A stretch of 64,000 bases of DNA from Acidobacteriota bacterium (GTDB lineage: Bacteria > Acidobacteriota > Vicinamibacteria > Vicinamibacterales > 2-12-FULL-66-21). The DNA is taken from assembly GCA_003222675.1 (NCBI GenBank), contig QHWT01000081.1, forward strand, positions 47,675-111,674, in the 5' to 3' direction. This document shows, piece by piece, positions 29,635 to 43,411 of the stretch (within the stretch, counting starts at the first letter, position 1; every line of letters begins with the position of its first letter). The notes below the pieces were generated by a model that searched no databases, was not told the DNA's origin, and saw only the letters and a list, made by a program, of their open reading frames with translations. A program made the position numbers and the translations under genes.

Positions 29635-30315
29635 ATGCCCAAGCATCGTGACTTCAAGGACCGCCTGTACGGCCAGTTCGCCCGAATCGGCAAAGCGCTC
29701 GGCAATCCGCACCGACTGGAATTCCTGGAACTCCTGGCTCAGTGCGAGCGCACCGTCGACTCGCTTGCGACTGAAACTGGAGTGTCGCTGGCAAATGCCT
29801 CGCAGCACCTTCAGGCGTTGAAGCAGGCCGCACTGGTCGAAAGCCGCAAGCAAGGGCTTTTTGTCTATTACCGCCTCGCCGATCCCGCGGTGTTCGAGTT
29901 GTGCGCGGCCATCCAGAGTGTCGCCCAGCGCAGGCTCGCCGATCTCGAGCGGCTCGTGCATGAGCAGTTCGGCGACCGAGCGACCCCGGAACCAGTTCGG
30001 CTGGAGGAGCTCCTCGAGCGACGCCGGTCGAGCGCTGTGATTGTTCTCGACGCACGGCCGGTGAGCGAATACCAGGCCGGGCATATCGCGGGCGCGATTT
30101 CGGTCCCGGTCGACGAGCTCCAACGGCGTCTTCGACAGCTGCCGAAAAACAAGGAATACGTCGCCTATTGCCGTGGCCCGTACTGCGTGTACGCGGATCG
30201 CGCGGTGGAACTCCTCCGAGGCAGTAAGCGCCGAGCCCGACGACTGCTGCAGGGATTCCCCGAATGGCGGGCGGCTGGCTTCCCTGTCGAGCATGGAGGT
30301 GACGTATGGCACTGA
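29635..30315 (+). CDS. ArsR family regulator fused to a rhodanese domain
   Basis: 226 residues. The N-terminal winged helix is of ArsR type (IGKALGNPHRLEFLELLAQC, VSLANASQHLQALKQAALVE, GLFVYYRLAD). The C-terminal rhodanese domain is VIVLDARPVSEYQAGHIAGAI with the active-site loop YCRGPYCVYA, containing two Cys. A persulfide- or metalloid-sensing repressor is a reasonable reading, since rhodanese Cys can carry a persulfide. No ELCVC As-site is present. The stop overlaps the ArsM start by 10 bases, making it the head of the operon. Confidence 0.9.
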   Translation: MPKHRDFKDRLYGQFARIGKALGNPHRLEFLELLAQCERTVDSLATETGVSLANASQHLQALKQAALVESRKQGLFVYYRLADPAVFELCAAIQSVAQRRLADLERLVHEQFGDRATPEPVRLEELLERRRSSAVIVLDARPVSEYQAGHIAGAISVPVDELQRRLRQLPKNKEYVAYCRGPYCVYADRAVELLRGSKRRARRLLQGFPEWRAAGFPVEHGGDVWH

Positions 30316-31118
30316 CCTGTCCGATTGACTTGGACGTCGCGGGTCTCCGGGCGGAGGTCCAGACGATGTACTCGCGTGTTGCCGCATCGCCCGACGGCGA
30401 TTTTCATTTCCATCGTGGCCCCGAGTACGCGGCCACGAAGCTCGGGTACGACGCGCGCGAGCTCGCAGCGCTACCGTCAGACGTCACTGCTTCGTTCGCT
30501 GGCGTTGGCAACCCGCACGCCATCCATCGAATTGAGGAGGGCAGCGTCGTGCTGGACATCGGCTGCGGTGCAGGAACCGACCTGCTCCTGGCCGCGCGCC
30601 GATCCGGACCTCGCGGGCGCGCGATTGGCGTCGACATGACCGAGGCGATGCGAGAACGCGCTGTCGCCGGCGCCGCGGCATGCGGACTCTCGAATGTTGA
30701 CGTGCGCAACGGCGATGCGACCTCGCTGCCGGTCGACGATCGCAGTATCGATATCGTGATCTCGAACGGCGTGTTGAATCTCGTGCCCGACAAGCACCGG
30801 GCGATTGCGGAGATCTGCCGGGTCCTCAAACCTGGCGGCCGCGTACAGATTGCAGACATCGTGATCGGCGAGACCCTGCCCGACCGCGCGCTGCGCGACG
30901 TCGATCTCTGGACCGGTTGAATCGCTGGCGCTCTGCTGGAAGCAGAGCTCATTTCGGCGTTCGCGTCCGCAGGTTTCGAGGCCCCGCGCATCGTCGCGCG
31001 ATTCGACTGTTTCGCCGGAACCACCAAAGAGCGCACGGCCCGACGGTACGGCGTCGGCGGTGTGAATCTTCTCGCAATCCAATCCCACCATCACGAGCAC
31101 GCCCGTCGTATTCGGTAG
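30306..31118 (+). CDS. arsM: ArsM-like arsenite methyltransferase, selenocysteine form
   Basis: Read through TGA 30918-30920, the product is 270 residues with Sec about 205. The SAM site is VVLDIGCGAGTDLLLAARR, then GVDMTEAM, NGDATSLPVDDRSIDIVISN and VLKPGGRVQIADIV. The UGA sits in LRDVDLWTG-U-IAGALLEAEL. ArsM-type enzymes have a substrate-binding Cys at this place (a C-x-A-G-A-L-type block). After it the frame continues to RFDCFAGTTKERTARRYGVGGVNLLA, the usual C-terminus, ending at TAG 31116. A perfect hairpin follows the UGA. The enzyme methylates As(III) with SAM in the cytoplasm; operon with ArsR-rhodanese and MBL hydrolase. Confidence 0.88.
30918..30948 (+). promoter_or_regulatory. Putative bacterial SECIS element (ArsM gene)
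   Basis: UGA, 9-base spacer, stem GCUCUGC/GCAGAGC (7 bp, perfect), loop UGGAA with G at position two; loop starts 17 bases after the UGA. Confidence 0.8.
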
Positions 31119-33166: not shown

Positions 33167-33844
33167 ATGCCTTGCTCTTGTTGCGCGTTCCTCAATGCTA
33201 CCGAACGGCAATTCTCGCAAAAGAAAGCTGCGTCCGAGATCGCTCGCTATCGCGAGAAGGGTCCGGGACCTACGACACGGCTGCTTCGAGATGGGCTGGT
33301 GAACGCAGGCCCCGTTGACGGGACCGTTCTGGACATTGGCGGCGGCGTAGGTGCGTTGTCCTTCGAGTTGCTCGACCGAGGCGTTACGCGCGCCGTTATC
33401 GTTGACGCCTCACCAGCGTATCTCGCGGCCGCCTCCGACGAAGCAAATCGACGAGGCCGCGCTGCCGTGACGTCCGTCGTTCCCGGGGACTTCGTCATGA
33501 TCTCGGACCAGCTCCCGCCGGGTGATCTGGTCACGCTCGATCGTGTGGTCTGTTGTTATCCGGGGTACCAGCCACTCTTGACGGAGTCGCTGCAGCACGC
33601 CGTGCATCGGTTTGCTTATTCGTATCCCCGAGACCGGTGGTTCGTCAGGTTCAGGGTGTGGCTGGAGAACACGCTGAGGTGGTGGCGGTCCAACCCGTTT
33701 CGGACGTTCGTTCATCCGCCTTCCGAGATGCAGCGAATTGTTGAAGCAGCGGGTTTCAGACTTGCGAATCGCCGTTACACGCTGACGTGGTCTGCCGATG
33801 TGTTTGTGAAGGCAGCAGCGGCGGCTATTCCGAATCGCGACTGA
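33167..33844 (+). CDS. SAM-dependent methyltransferase with Cys-rich N-terminus
   Basis: 225 residues after a strong AAAGGAGG. It begins MPCSCCAFLNATERQFSQKK, three Cys in a metal-like cluster. The SAM site is VLDIGGGVGALSFELLDRGV and the following acidic loop VIVDASPAYLAAA. CCYPGYQPLL provides two more Cys. It lies last in the ArsR-led operon and overlaps the 3' end of the convergent response regulator. A thiol, arsenic or selenium methyl acceptor is possible but unproven. Confidence 0.85.
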   Translation: MPCSCCAFLNATERQFSQKKAASEIARYREKGPGPTTRLLRDGLVNAGPVDGTVLDIGGGVGALSFELLDRGVTRAVIVDASPAYLAAASDEANRRGRAAVTSVVPGDFVMISDQLPPGDLVTLDRVVCCYPGYQPLLTESLQHAVHRFAYSYPRDRWFVRFRVWLENTLRWWRSNPFRTFVHPPSEMQRIVEAAGFRLANRRYTLTWSADVFVKAAAAAIPNRD

Positions 33845-34577
33845 GTCGATACCCCGTTTTCCTAATCGTCAGGATGTGTTGCGGCTTCGCCGCGTCGTCC
33901 TCCAGCTTGCGGCGAAGTTCCGCCACATGAGTATCGACCGTGCGCGTAAGGACGCTGGCGGCGTGGCCCCACACCTCTCGAAGCAATTCCACGCGCGATA
34001 CGACGGCTCCGTCACGCTCCAGCAACGCGAGCAGCAGGTTGAACTCCATCGCGGTGAGAGCCACGGCGCGATCGCCCTTTCGCACGGTTCGTGTGTCTGG
34101 ATCGACGAGAACATTCCCGAAGCGCATCGGCGCGGCACGTCCAGAGTGACTGCCCCTGCTTCGCCGCAATAGTGCTTCAATCCGTGCCATCAGTTCCAAA
34201 ATGCCAAATGGCTTGGTCACGTAGTCATCAGCGCCGAGCCTGAAGCCACGGACTTTGTCCGCCTCCTCGCCGCGTGCGGTCAGGATGAGCACGGGCATCT
34301 GAAGATCATCGTCGCGCATCGCACGCAGCACGCGGTAGCCGTCAAGGCCTGGCAACATGAGATCCAGCACGACAAGATCGGGCCGGAGCTCACGCACTCG
34401 GTCCAAGCCCTTTGCACCGTCGGTTGACACCTCAACGGTGTAGCCTTCGATCTCCAGATTGTTACGAAGCCCGTATGCAAGGTCCTCGTTGTCTTCGATG
34501 ACGAGAATTCGCGCAATGAACTCGTGTCGATGACTCGTCGGAGCACTCATCTGCGCTCTCGGCCCAATCGCTAACAT
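33825..34577 (-). CDS. OmpR/PhoB family response regulator
   Basis: 250 residues (a shorter start at the internal M-S-A-P is possible). Receiver: ILVIEDNEDLAYGL, PDLVVLDLMLPGLDGYRVL (phospho-acceptor Asp), VLILTARGEE, YVTKPFGILEL. The winged helix of OmpR type includes ALTAMEFNLLLALLERDGAVVSR and LTRTVDTHVAELRRKLEDD. It is three bases downstream of the sensor kinase stop, so it is co-transcribed with it. The 3' end overlaps the convergent methyltransferase by 20 bases. Confidence 0.92.
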   Translation of the reverse strand: MLAIGPRAQMSAPTSHRHEFIARILVIEDNEDLAYGLRNNLEIEGYTVEVSTDGAKGLDRVRELRPDLVVLDLMLPGLDGYRVLRAMRDDDLQMPVLILTARGEEADKVRGFRLGADDYVTKPFGILELMARIEALLRRSRGSHSGRAAPMRFGNVLVDPDTRTVRKGDRAVALTAMEFNLLLALLERDGAVVSRVELLREVWGHAASVLTRTVDTHVAELRRKLEDDAAKPQHILTIRKTGYRLSRDSE

Positions 34578-34580
34578 GTT

Positions 34581-36245
34581 CTAGACCTTCGCGACGGCCG
34601 ATGGCCACTCGCTCACGTCGGGTGCAATGCTGCCCCCTGCGAATTCGACAACGAAACGCGCCCCACCTGATTCCCGAGGCTCTATCGAGACACGCCCTTG
34701 ATGGAGCTCGACGAGCTTCTTGACGATCGCCAGACCGATCCCGGTGCCGCCGACCGCGGTATCACGCGTCAGTCGATAGAACGGTTGCCAGATCCTGTCA
34801 ATATGTTCAGGTGGTACGCCGGGTCCCTCGTCCTCAACGGCGATGCGCGCGACGTCGTGGTTGCATTGGGCCGACACGGTAATGGTCTGGCCCTGTGGAC
34901 CGTACTTCACAGCGTTGTCGAGAAGGTTGAGCATGATTTGCCGAAATGCCTCGGCGTCAATCGGGGCGGTGAGGCCGCCTTCGATTCGGCGGACGATCGA
35001 CACCCGCCTGGAGTGCGCGAGCGGCGTGAAGCCGTCCACGATGTCGTTCAGTAAGGTATCCACTCGCGCCGCCGCGAGTGAGACAGATGAAGCCCCTCGG
35101 TCGGCGCGCGAGAATTGCAGTACGTTCTCGATCAGATGCGTAAGTCGCCGCGATTCTTGCACGATGATCGCGAGCGACCGCTCCTGTTCGGCAGGTGAAC
35201 GCACCCGGCCAAGAAGCAGGGTTTCACCGAACATCCGGATTTGCGCCAGGGGTGTGCGGAGTTCGTGAGACACACCAGAGATAAAGTCAGCGCGAAGGCG
35301 AGCCAATTCGTGTTCGCGCCGCAACTGCACGATGGCAATGAGAACCAGCGCGGCGGTGAGGACGGTCAGACCGGCGAGCAGCGGAAGCCGGCTGCGAGGA
35401 AGGCCGCCGATGATGAGCGTCCCGGCAGCCGTGGGGTGCAGCGCAACGTCCAGCCGCAGATTACCAAGTTCCGCACCGAGCACCCTCTCGCTTGCGTACG
35501 ACGACCACTCCGAATTCGACGCGTAGATCTCACGCCGGTTCATATCGAGTACCCGCACGCTGACAAGTCGACGCGTGTCGTTGCCCAACGACGGCGGGAG
35601 CAATGGCGATTGGGCGAGAATCCGTTCAAACGGTCCTTTGATGAACGAGAGATCGGCCACGAACCCGATGATGGGCGCTGATTGCGGCGTTTGTGGATCC
35701 GGCACGCGCCACACGAGCACGTGTGGTTCTGGTCCTGCATCGATTCGCACCAGGGGATGGCCAGCGCGGAGCTGGCCGGTCCTCACTTGCGCCAGGCCTT
35801 CGGCGAGCGAGCGTTGGATGGTGTTGGAGAGCGGCCTCCCACTCGTGACGATGTCACCGCCTTGACGCGGAACCGCAAAGAGGCTGCGAACCGCAGCCAG
35901 ATCCGCGCCTCAGGTATCTTTCACGCGTATCCATTGATCGAGTGTGGGAAGGCGGTCACGTCCGTCACATGACGATGCGAGTCGCGTCAGCTGGGTGCCG
36001 ATCACATCGTGCAACTCACGTTCAGTCCGCCGCGTGAGTTCGTCGCCCGCGAGGGCCGCGTAGTCGCGCAGCACGTTCTCTGCCGTCGCTCGGTGGGAAC
36101 GAACAGCCTGCTGCGCCTGGTATGCGAGCGTGGCGGCGACCGCAAGCGTCACGAGTAAGACAGCGGCAATCACGATCGATCGCGCACGCCAGCCCCGGAG
36201 CAGGCGCGATGGTGTCATCGGCCTGAAATCGCGCATCGCCTCCAT
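34581..36245 (-). CDS. Membrane sensor histidine kinase with in-frame UGA (probable Sec) in its sensor domain
   Basis: Read through TGA 35912-35910, it encodes 554 residues. TM1 is about residues 22-45 (SIVIAAVLLVTLAVAATLAY). The periplasmic sensor (46-285) includes LASSCDGRDRLP and DT-U-GADLAAVRSLF with Sec about 112, then GFVADLSFIKGPFERIL. TM2 is 286-307. The HisKA helix is FISGVSHELRTPLAQIRMFGE (His about 327). ATPase boxes are LLDNAVKYGPQG, DEGPGVPPEHI and GTGIGLAIVKKLVELHQG. The frame is intact on both sides of the UGA, and a perfect 7-bp hairpin lies 11 bases after it. The Cys plus Sec pair outside the membrane suggests redox or soft-metal sensing. If not read through, the product is a 111-residue anchor. 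Confidence 0.8.
35882..35912 (-). promoter_or_regulatory. Putative bacterial SECIS element (sensor kinase gene)
   Basis: On the minus strand: UGA, 11-base spacer, stem GGCUGCG/CGCAGCC (7 bp, perfect), loop GUU; loop starts 19 bases after the UGA with G first. Confidence 0.7.
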
Positions 36246-36294
36246 TCTACGACTGCTCGCAGCCTGGGAAGCGTCCGCAACAGGTCAGGGAAAT

Positions 36295-36327
36295 GTCAGA
36301 AACGTGTGAACTTCACCAATTTCTGAC
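36295..36327. promoter_or_regulatory. Inverted repeat between divergent kinase and rhodanese genes
   Basis: Arms GTCAGAAA and TTTCTGAC (perfect, 8 bases) with a 17-base spacer; TGACGT-GCAAT-TGACGT follows directly at 36323. The site is the only intergenic space between the two divergent transcription units, so it is the likely operator for the encoded response regulator. Confidence 0.55.
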
Positions 36328-36398: not shown

Positions 36399-37487
36399 AT
36401 GCGCAAGTGGCATCGAGGTGCCGTCGGATTGTTGTTGGCACTGGTCGCGTTTCCGAGTCAGGCGCAAGTTCCGGCAAAGGTGCGGCAGGAGGAAACCGCG
36501 CGCGAAGCGTACCAGAGAGTCGCAGATATTTTCCACGCCATGGGTGTTCAGGCTGGGGCTGTCGTGGCGGACGTTGGCGCCGGCGGCGGCTTTCTGACGG
36601 TGCGGCTCGCCCGGGCTGTGGCCCCTGGGGGCCGAGTCATCGCGGTGGATACCGATACGCGCGTGGTTGAACGCCTTCGAACGCGCGTCCAGCAGGAAGG
36701 GCTCACGAATGTCGAAGTCGTGCAAGGAGCCGAAGACGACCCGCACCTGACACCAGACTCACTCGACGCGGCAGTCATCGTAAACGCCTATCACGAAATG
36801 CGTGCACACGAAGCGATGCTTCGTCGCTTGCGGCGTGCGCTCAAACCGAAAGGACGCCTCGTGATTGTCGAGCCGTTGACAGAGAAACGGCGCCACGAGT
36901 CGCGCGACGTGCTGTTCCGTATGCATGAGATTACGCTGCCGTTCGTCGAACAAGATGCGCGCGACGCCGGCTTCCGAATTGCCCGAGCCGAAGATCCGTT
37001 TACCGAACGCGGCTCTGACATCATGTGGTTGCTCGTTGCGGTCCCTGACCTCCTCGCGTTACCGACCGCGGAAGGGAATTTAGACTCTGAGTCATCAAGC
37101 CGATCTTCTGCATCGAGGCCAACAGCTTCGGACGACGAGGCCTCACTCGCCAGTCCTGACTTGCGCATCCCCTTCGTCCGATTCAAACAGCTCCGTGAAC
37201 AAGGCGAGATCGCGGTCATCGACGTGCGCAGCGAGGAAGAGTACGAATCAGGGCACATTCCTGGTGCGACCTGGATATCGCTGGAGAAGATCGGTGAACA
37301 CGTCGAAGGTCTGCGGAAGTTCGGAAAGCCCATCGCGACCTACTGCAGTTGAATGGCGGAACAAACGAGCGCCCGTGCGGCGCTCGAACTGAGGCGCCGG
37401 GGTTTGTCGGATGTGTGGGCGGTGCGCGGCGGGTTTGAGAATTGGAGATCTGAAGGGAATCCGATTGCGAAGGGACTCGAGCGGTGA
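36399..37487 (+). CDS. Secreted methyltransferase-rhodanese fusion, selenocysteine form
   Basis: Read through TGA 37350-37352, the protein has 362 residues. GGAGG precedes ATG 36399 and a signal peptide follows (GAVGLLLALVAFPSQAQ). The N-terminal SAM-methyltransferase-like domain has VVADVGAGGGFLTVRLARAV, IAVDTD and LKPKGRLVIVEPL. The C-terminal rhodanese domain is IAVIDVRSEEEYESGHIPGA, then the active-site loop ATYCS-U-MAEQTSARAALELRRRG and GGFENWRSEGNPI. The Sec (about 318) is the third residue of a C-S-U/C motif where relatives have C-x-C. A perfect 8-bp hairpin follows. Exported sulfur or selenium transfer is the simplest role. A SAM domain outside the cytoplasm is odd. Confidence 0.85.
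37350..37386 (+). promoter_or_regulatory. Putative bacterial SECIS element (rhodanese gene)
   Basis: UGA, 13-base spacer, stem CGAGCGCC/GGCGCUCG (8 bp, perfect), loop CGUGC with G second; loop starts 22 bases after the UGA. Confidence 0.8.
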
Positions 37488-37593: not shown

Positions 37594-38721
37594 ATGCTCG
37601 GACGCGGATGCGTCGTGCCGGCCACTCTTGGCACGCTCGTGATGCTGACGACAGGGACCGCGGCACGCCAAGCCGAACGCTCGGCTGCGCCCGAGATCGT
37701 CTGGCAGTTTCAAGCCGGAGGCTGACTCGCGCATACGCCCGCGGCTGCGGGCGACAGCGTGTACATCGGGTCCTGCAACGGCATGTTTCGCGAACTCGAT
37801 GCAAGGACCGGGAAAGTACGGTGGGAAACCAACATCCGCGGGACTGCGCTGAAGTACTTCTTTCACGGCGACGTGTTCGTAGCGGCCGATCGCATCATCG
37901 CAAGTACCGACGTCGATCCGGCGACCGGCATGGAGGCGGGTGTCCACGCATTCGATCGAGTCTCGGGCCGTCGGCTCTGGACGCAGCCGACCGGTGAGGG
38001 AGTGAAAGGCGCAGTTGTTGGTCAGGGCCGACGCGTGTTTGTCTACACGGCTACCGGCGATTTGATCGCGCTCGATATTGAATCCGGCAAGCGCGAATGG
38101 AGCAACGCCCTTAATGCCTCGCCGTGGGACAGCCCGGGCGTTGCGGCGCGGCGCGTCTTTGCGGGCTCGAATGACGGGTCGTTATATGCGTTTGACGACG
38201 AGACCGGCCGGATCGAATGGCGCAAGAAATTCGGTACGGCTGTCAGCACGTCGATCCGAGCCACCGAAACGGCTGTGTACGCCGGTACTGCTGATGGGGC
38301 CATGCACCGTTTCGCGCCGAAAGACGGCGAGATTTTGGCGTCGCTCGAGTTGGACTCCAAGCTGAAGCCCGGCAGCGTGCCATTGATCACGCCCAGCGGT
38401 GTGCTTGTCCTGCTCGCCGACAGTCACGCCGAATATCGAGCGCTCGTATCTCTTGACCCTGCATTGGGACGCGTCAACTGGCGTCGTGCCGCGCCCGATC
38501 GCTGGACCACGACGCGTGTATTCGCAACTGAGAAAACTGTTCTTCTTGGCACGCCATCGGGCGAGGTGACGGCCTATTGTGCGGCCGATGGTTCCCCGGC
38601 CTGGTCACACAAATTCCCCGACGCCCCGATCCGTTCGATCGGCGGCTCTGACGACATGCTGTACGTCGGCACACTGCCGGGGGCGCTGTACGCGGTGCGG
38701 CCGCCAGCCGCCTGCATGTGA
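37594..38721 (+). CDS. PQQ-type beta-propeller protein with in-frame UGA (probable Sec)
   Basis: Read through TGA 37723-37725, it is 375 residues with Sec about 44. AAAGGA precedes ATG 37594 and a signal-like N-terminus follows (VPATLGTLVMLTTGTAARQA). The first blade reads EIVWQFQAGG-U-LAHTPAAAGDSVYIGSCNGMFRELD. Further blades are AFDRVSGRRLWTQP, ALDIESGKREWSN, AFDDETGRIEWRKK and YVGTLPGALYAV. Without readthrough only 43 residues are made, so the signal peptide would be split from the propeller. The Cys in IGSCNG, 14 residues on, could pair with the Sec. I know of no described selenoprotein of this fold. Probably periplasmic; downstream of the rhodanese gene. Confidence 0.78.
37723..37753 (+). 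promoter_or_regulatory. Putative bacterial SECIS element (beta-propeller gene)
   Basis: UGA, 10-base spacer, stem CGCCCGC/GCGGGCG (7 bp, perfect), loop GGCU; loop starts 18 bases after the UGA with G first. Confidence 0.75.
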
Positions 38722-42061: not shown

Positions 42062-43411
42062 ATGAGGAAGAACATTGTGTTGGCGTTCGCCATCCTGACC
42101 GGTGCGATCGGTGGCGACTCAGTGGTCAGCGGCCAGGTTCCGAGATCCGCAGGGGCGCAGCATGCGCAGGAGTATCGAAATTACGAGGGGCCGCCAGTCA
42201 CGCTGACCGCTCTGCTCCGGGAAGCTGCCGACAAAAATCCTGATCTCATTGTTCTGCGGCAACAGATCGACGTCATGCGTCAACGTCCGGCACAACAGCG
42301 GGGATTGAATCCGCCGATGGCCGAAGCGCAGATCTGGCAGTGGCCAATCAACTCCATCAACCCTGCGAACACGAACATGTACATGTTCATGGTCAGCCAG
42401 GAACTGCCTGGCCGCGGGAAGCGTGACCTGCGAGCCGCGGTCGCCGAAAAGGACATCGCGCTGGCGGAGAACGACGTCACGGTCCGGGCGCGGCAGATTG
42501 TCAACGAAATCAAGCAGGCCTACGCGACGCTGTTCATCGCACGGAAAGCGATCGATGTGCACCTGGAAAGCGTCGATTTGCTGCGCCAGATTGCCGACGT
42601 CTGACAGGCGAAGTACACGACGGGGCGGATCTCGCAACACGACGTGCTGAAGCCCGTCGTGGAGCTCTCGAAGCTCCATGACCACATCATCATGTTTGAT
42701 GAACAGGCGAATCTGGCCACCGCGAAGCTGAACCTGCTCTTGGATCGTGCACCAGAGACGCCTCTTGGTCCGCTCATGGAGCCAGGCGAAGAGATGCTGC
42801 TCCCGGCGACGGCCGATCTGCAGCGAACGGCAATCGGGCAGCATCCTGAACTGGAGCGCGCGCGTATCGAGATCGACCGGGCCCAAGCGGAGCTCGCCGT
42901 CGCTCGACGTGACTACAAGCCCGATGTCAGCGTGCAGGCCGGCTACATGCTGGCGCCTCGCATGACTGATGCCTGGATGGGCAGCATCGCGGTCACCTGG
43001 CCCAAGGCGCCGTGGTCGCGCGGGAAGGTCGACGCGCGTGTCGCCGAACAGGCTGCGGCGGTCGAGGCGGCCAAAGCCCGCGCTCGCGCGATGGAGAACA
43101 CGGTGCGCCTGGCCGTGCAGGAGGCGTACGTCCGCGCCAAAGCTGCGCAGGAACGAGCCGCGCTGTTGCGGACCACGATCCTGCCCCAGTCGCAGCAGAC
43201 CCTCGAGGTCTCGCGCGTTGCGTATCAAACGGACCGCGTCGACTTCCAGGCGTTGATCGACAACGAACGGATGCTGCTCGACGCGCGGTTGGACTACTTC
43301 CGCGCCTTGAGCGACTTCAGCCAGGCGCTCGCGGATCTCGAACGGGCCGTCGGCAGCGACCTACCGGCGGGGACAACCGCCGTTGTGTCCGTTCAGGAGA
43401 CACGAAGATGA
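42062..43411 (+). pseudogene. cusC: CusC/TolC-type outer-membrane efflux protein with in-frame UGA
   Basis: The frame encodes about 449 residues broken once by TGA 42602-42604. Before it: signal peptide, YRNYEGPPVTLTALLREAAD, GLNPPMAEAQIWQWP, SQELPGRGKRDLRAA. After it: QAKYTTGRISQHDVLKPVVE, ARIEIDRAQAELAVARRDYKPD, VAYQTDRVDFQALIDNERML. Relatives have a small residue (Ala, Ser or Thr) at the UGA, not Cys, and no short hairpin follows. A nonsense mutation or base error is therefore more likely than Sec. The stop overlaps the cusB start (ATGA). Confidence 0.8.

Follow-up and report, generated by a model that had tools for sequence, protein, structure and literature searches.

A membrane sensor whose outside domain contains selenocysteine (Sec), the uncommon 21st amino acid, seems to be made by an uncultured acidobacterium from soil and by three or more of its relatives. 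The account that best explains the locus as a whole, and one that we consider probable, is a Sec/Cys sensor kinase that is decoded by the genome's own SelA, SelB, and tRNA-Sec and drives a PhoB-type regulator at a selenoprotein locus. It was built from sequence features: conservation of a UGA codon, apparent selection on a SECIS hairpin, a Cys hotspot, the decoding machinery, synteny, and a single operator-like site. All coordinates below are positions in the window, which is the whole 64,000-nucleotide stretch of DNA that was analysed.

A conserved UGA codon in a sensor histidine kinase gene

The minus-strand frame at 34581 to 36245 is 554 codons long, is interrupted solely by a single in-frame TGA, and codes for a sensor histidine kinase. 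Its predicted product consists of a transmembrane helix (TM1), a periplasmic dCache-like sensor, a second transmembrane helix (TM2), and HisKA and HATPase_c domains. The domain search matched HisKA (3e-18), with its phospho-acceptor His in VSHELRTP, and HATPase_c (2e-29), and a partner response regulator is present. No Pfam sensor-domain match was found in the kinase. The TGA is codon 112 (35910 to 35912, minus strand), in the periplasmic part between the two transmembrane stretches, and a Cys codon lies 19 residues before it (Cys93 in SSCDG; 35967 to 35969, minus strand). A first-pass annotation of this DNA had described the frame, the UGA, and the Cys in these terms, and we confirmed all three. 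A conserved, -10-like TAGAAT box (36244 to 36249, minus strand), just 5' of the kinase start, overlaps the first ATG. Therefore, the second ATG (36236) is probably the real start, which would renumber the Sec to residue 109. At the Sec loci, the start ATG is a few bases past a TAGAAT-like box (36234 to 36249 in the window, minus strand), and the kinase mRNA may be leaderless.

Among 162 genomes of the order, our search recovered three full-length orthologs (64, 61, and 57 to 58% identity), every one of which contains a single internal TGA. It occupies the same aligned codon in all four kinases (KDTUGADLAAVRSLF, KDTUGANLAAVRSIF, KDGUGGSLAAVRSVF, and QDGUKGNLAAVRSVF), none of which has any other internal stop. 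Cys93, the proposed partner of Sec112, is also common to all four. The kinases come from four genera, and two of the three ortholog genomes belong to other families. The search for UGA members covered the order, the class, the phylum, and 395 genomes of the phylum of homolog L054 (a Gemmatimonadetes record), and it found none beyond these four (Sec members, n = 4, with the relatives represented by assemblies from uncultured bacteria). A separate contig-level search recovered three of the four again.

If the UGA were a true stop, the gene would be split or decaying, with a 111-residue fragment followed by a shorter kinase that starts later. A GTG-started open reading frame (34581 to 35786) does lie 3' of the UGA. 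However, the same UGA is found in four genera at 57 to 64% identity, with no other damage and with both sides conserved; no homolog among those aligned starts after it; and the nearest intact relatives that lack the UGA have a whole gene with Cys. Conservation among the orthologs extends to the part that precedes the UGA (TM1, RSHRATAENVLRDYA), and therefore the gene does not start after that codon. This leaves the true stop hardly credible and close to refuted. A decayed gene was rejected on the alignment.

The UGA is followed by a hairpin, GGCUGCG-GUU-CGCAGCC (35882 to 35898, minus strand), which the first-pass annotation had also pointed out. It recurs in all four UGA genes with a 6- to 7-bp stem, a GUU or GUC loop that begins 18 nt past the UGA, and a folding energy of -8.0 to -11.3 kcal/mol, all within the published limits for a bSECIS element (PMC13188914). 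It was absent from the two Cys homologs that we folded. The hairpin spans the codons of a conserved AAVRS motif, so constraint on the protein could explain some of its conservation, but the synonymous positions argue against this. Synonymous recodings equalled the hairpin in only 1.2 to 1.8% of cases per gene (p = 0.012 to 0.018 in each of the four genes). The stem codons for A117, A118, R120, and S121 (GCT GCG. CGC AGC) are identical in all four genes, and the loop codon varies between GTT and GTC. At other invariant residues of the same genes, codon identity was 0% for Ala (n = 20), 7% for Arg (n = 27), and 7% for Ser (n = 14). This suggests that the stem codons are under selection at synonymous positions. 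We used the synonymous-codon test because the stem hardly varies, which makes a covariation test weak: one gene has G-C as the outer pair, two have C-G, and in the fourth these bases are unpaired, so covariation amounts to one compensated pair.

The 7.16-Mb genome that contains the window encodes SelA, SelB, and a tRNA-Sec with a TCA anticodon. SelB and tRNA-Sec are also present in all three other UGA-kinase genomes. We infer that UGA112 is read as selenocysteine. This reading is supported because the codon is conserved as UGA in orthologs and replaced by Cys in further homologs, the SECIS appears to be under selection, and the machinery is in the genome. It is also the reading that the first-pass annotation had proposed.

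A Cys hotspot in a Cache-type sensor domain

In an AlphaFold2 model of the sensor (12 family members; pLDDT 81), two alpha/beta modules come after a long helix. Among solved structures, the model most resembles dCache sensors, such as KinD (Z 10.7 over 183 residues) and PctA, and the periplasmic domain between the two transmembrane helices is accordingly predicted to have a dCache fold. Sec112 and Cys93, which are model residues 93 and 74, are placed in the loop that joins the first helix to the first strand. This loop was modelled at a confidence of 63 to 66, and therefore we claim no distance between Cys93 and Sec112.

Homologs without the UGA often have Cys in this region. L015 (48% identity) and L016 (46%) are whole frames with Cys at the aligned site (CGNGC and ECDCG). 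Gemmatimonadota members often carry CxC at or beside it, and many other homologs lack Cys altogether. The 51 non-Sec homologs have 48 periplasmic Cys residues, of which 30 fall in a 15-residue stretch that surrounds the site (p = 5e-24, which is indicative because the rows are related). The correspondence is exact to within a few residues in distant homologs and is not always to the same column. We conclude from the alignments that the UGA site is a Cys hotspot of this sensor family. The first-pass annotation had suggested looking for Cys or UGA at residue 112 in orthologs, and had named unrelated residues there, or genes that start only after the UGA, as outcomes that would speak against Sec. 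We found UGA in the three orthologs and, further off, Cys at the site or within a few residues, and we encountered neither adverse outcome.

The same residues bear on whether the Sec is only structural, for example in a permanent selenenylsulfide with Cys93 that stabilises the loop. The periplasm is oxidising, and both residues are kept in all four kinases. However, the CxC found in homologs makes a poor static bridge and is a usual metal or redox pair, and Sec is costly and, in selenoproteins generally, seldom used for static bridges. A purely structural role is therefore very improbable.

The gene tree has a single Sec clade (97/97), whose sister rows L015 and L052 are of the Cys type. Frameshifts break L052, yet it reads HCAAGC at the site. 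Because the tree disagrees with the family codes of the genomes and just 7 of the order's 162 genomes have the sensor, we suggest that the kinase gene has spread by a horizontal type of transfer. In the phylum of L054, the sensor family is present in 106 of 395 genomes. Six of its members there (L103, L105, L107, L116, L119, and L120) have CxC and are a natural Cys comparison set.

A putative operator at a selenoprotein locus

An OmpR/PhoB-type response regulator gene (33825 to 34577, minus strand) adjoins the kinase gene in all four Sec loci. Divergent from the kinase is the gene for a secreted methyltransferase-rhodanese (MTrhod) selenoprotein with a YCSU motif (36399 to 37487, plus strand; UGA at 37350 to 37352), for which no NCBIfam model reached its cut-off. 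The arrangement of kinase, regulator, and divergent secreted methyltransferase is kept in all four Sec loci. The C-terminal rhodanese end with its UGA (YCSU or YCTU) is present in three of them (the window, L041, and L043), and the L042 contig stops before it. In a Cys-type relative, G006, the methyltransferase has no rhodanese domain, and the contig is damaged. An ArsM-like methyltransferase selenoprotein with a WTGU motif (WTGUIAGAL) is encoded at 30306 to 31118 on the plus strand (UGA at 30918 to 30920). This UGA is conserved in L042 and L043. ArsM genes with WTGU lie near the kinase in three loci (the window, L042, and L043); in L043, the gene is directly behind the methyltransferase-rhodanese gene on the same strand. 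MBL-fold and MFS genes follow the ArsM-like gene in the window and in L042. Two other plus-strand frames of the window are crossed by a UGA. One encodes a BamB/PQQ-like beta-propeller (37600 to 38721; UGA at about 37723 to 37725, in QAGGULAHTP) and is a candidate for Sec or for a later start. The other encodes a TolC-type outer membrane efflux protein (42062 to 43411; one UGA at 42602 to 42604, in ADVUQAKY), where Sec, an error, or decay could be the reason.

The gap between the kinase and methyltransferase genes contains a palindrome, GTCAG-N6-GTGAACTTCAC-N4-TTCTGAC (36295 to 36327), which is present once in the genome and is a putative operator of the response regulator. The consensus GTCAG-N6-GTGAANTTCAC-N4-TNCTGAC lies in this gap in all four Sec loci. 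Allowing up to three mismatches, each of the four Sec genomes has the palindrome once, always in the gap (the pattern was drawn from these same four loci), and three Cys genomes do not have it. At this threshold there were no further copies outside the gap in the seven genomes, and therefore a wider regulon could not be read. TGAC direct repeats lie 5' of the TAGAAT-like box, with an 11-bp period in three of the four Sec loci. Such 11-bp repeats upstream of a -10-like box are the pattern expected for a PhoB-type activator. The arrangement supports self-regulation of the system and control of the selenoprotein gene through the putative operator. The first-pass annotation had supposed that a Sec-containing sensor would control selenoprotein genes directly, and position favours this: the single-copy palindrome is beside the MTrhod gene, and ArsM is directly downstream in one genome.

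We consider it most likely that a Sec/Cys chemical switch drives this two-component system for a selenoprotein detoxification locus. UGA112 would be translated as Sec by the genome's own SelA, SelB, and tRNA-Sec with the help of the bSECIS hairpin just downstream. Sec112 and Cys93 would lie in the Cache loop where relatives carry Cys, often as a CxC pair, and would react with or bind a periplasmic oxidant or soft electrophile, as a redox or soft-metal switch. A change in the shape of the sensor would then alter phosphorylation of the adjacent PhoB-type regulator. The regulator would act at the lone palindrome in the gap that separates the kinase gene from the methyltransferase-rhodanese gene. 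It would thereby control the kinase, the MTrhod selenoprotein, and, in the one relative that has ArsM behind MTrhod, ArsM as well.

Selenium supply might instead be the signal. The kinase would be made only with selenium, decoding itself would be the sensor, selenoprotein genes would be on only when they can be translated, and Sec112 would need no special chemistry. By its position the kinase would control a selenoprotein operon, and truncation at codon 112 would remove the entire kinase. However, a gate of this kind would work with a UGA anywhere, whereas Cys is concentrated around this site in relatives that lack the UGA. Therefore, a thiol or selenol seems to have been chosen at this site, and a selenium gate on its own is improbable. 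The two readings are compatible, and gating through decoding may act alongside the chemical switch. A combined form, a selenol receptor that is made only with selenium, reads a soft electrophile through its Sec, and switches on selenoprotein detoxification genes, is conceivable but rather doubtful. If true, it would be a feed-forward circuit in which one trace element is required by the sensor and the effectors alike.

For the ligand of the chemical switch, trivalent arsenic or a methylated form of it is our first, tentative guess because ArsM is nearby; an arsenic-sensing role is thus a guess from the gene neighbourhood. We would place reactive sulfur second, because of the rhodanese and metallo-beta-lactamase-fold neighbours, and oxidants third. 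The neighbours of the Gemmatimonadota homologs have no common theme, and therefore no ligand can be inferred from them.

Comparison with known sensors and selenoproteins

Almost every selenoprotein known so far is regarded as a redox enzyme. To our knowledge, no earlier Sec-containing sensor kinase has had the combined support of conservation, SECIS selection, and synteny. With Sec in a sensor's outside domain, selenium would serve in signal sensing, and a transmembrane receptor of this kind would extend the use of Sec to signal detection. The family would offer a clean natural Sec/Cys comparison, in which the contribution of selenium to sensing (lower pKa, reversibility, and metalloid affinity) could be tested. 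Such a receptor would also connect a regulator with a small selenoprotein locus that centres on arsenic methylation and sulfur chemistry.

The first-pass annotation knew of no described example. This agrees with the 2026 catalogue of prokaryotic selenoproteins, whose 119 families include no kinase or sensor (PMC13188914), and we found no match to a known selenoprotein family there or in NCBIfam 20. However, a 2021 paper names "a histidine kinase" among unverified selenoprotein predictions from marine Deltaproteobacteria (PMC8318568). An in-frame UGA and a SECIS were predicted for it, as here; the comparison extends to that one line of a list, which its authors did not verify.

Among the closest counterparts are the Cys members from Acidobacteriota and Gemmatimonadota (L015, L016, L054, L057, L103, L105, L107, L119, and L120), which have the same sensor domain and HisKA kinase and, in those checked, an adjacent regulator. 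They differ in that CxC, CxxC, or CxxxC replaces Sec, with no SECIS in the two checked, and the Gemmatimonadota members have other neighbour genes. The dCache kinases and chemoreceptors (Bacillus subtilis KinD, PDB 4jgr and 4jgo; Pseudomonas PctA; Vibrio cholerae CqsR) share the predicted fold and the layout of a long helix from TM1, two alpha/beta modules, TM2, and HisKA-HATPase. They bind small organic ligands, whereas the Sec kinase would have Sec and Cys in the loop before the first strand. Finally, the selenoproteins of detoxification loci (ArsM with UxxG, rhodanese with CxU [NF041203], and the SAO and Tso operons) also cluster with methyltransferases and rhodanese and have a bSECIS of the usual model. 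However, they are enzymes, transporters, or binding proteins (PMC13188914), whereas the protein described here is a predicted sensor kinase.
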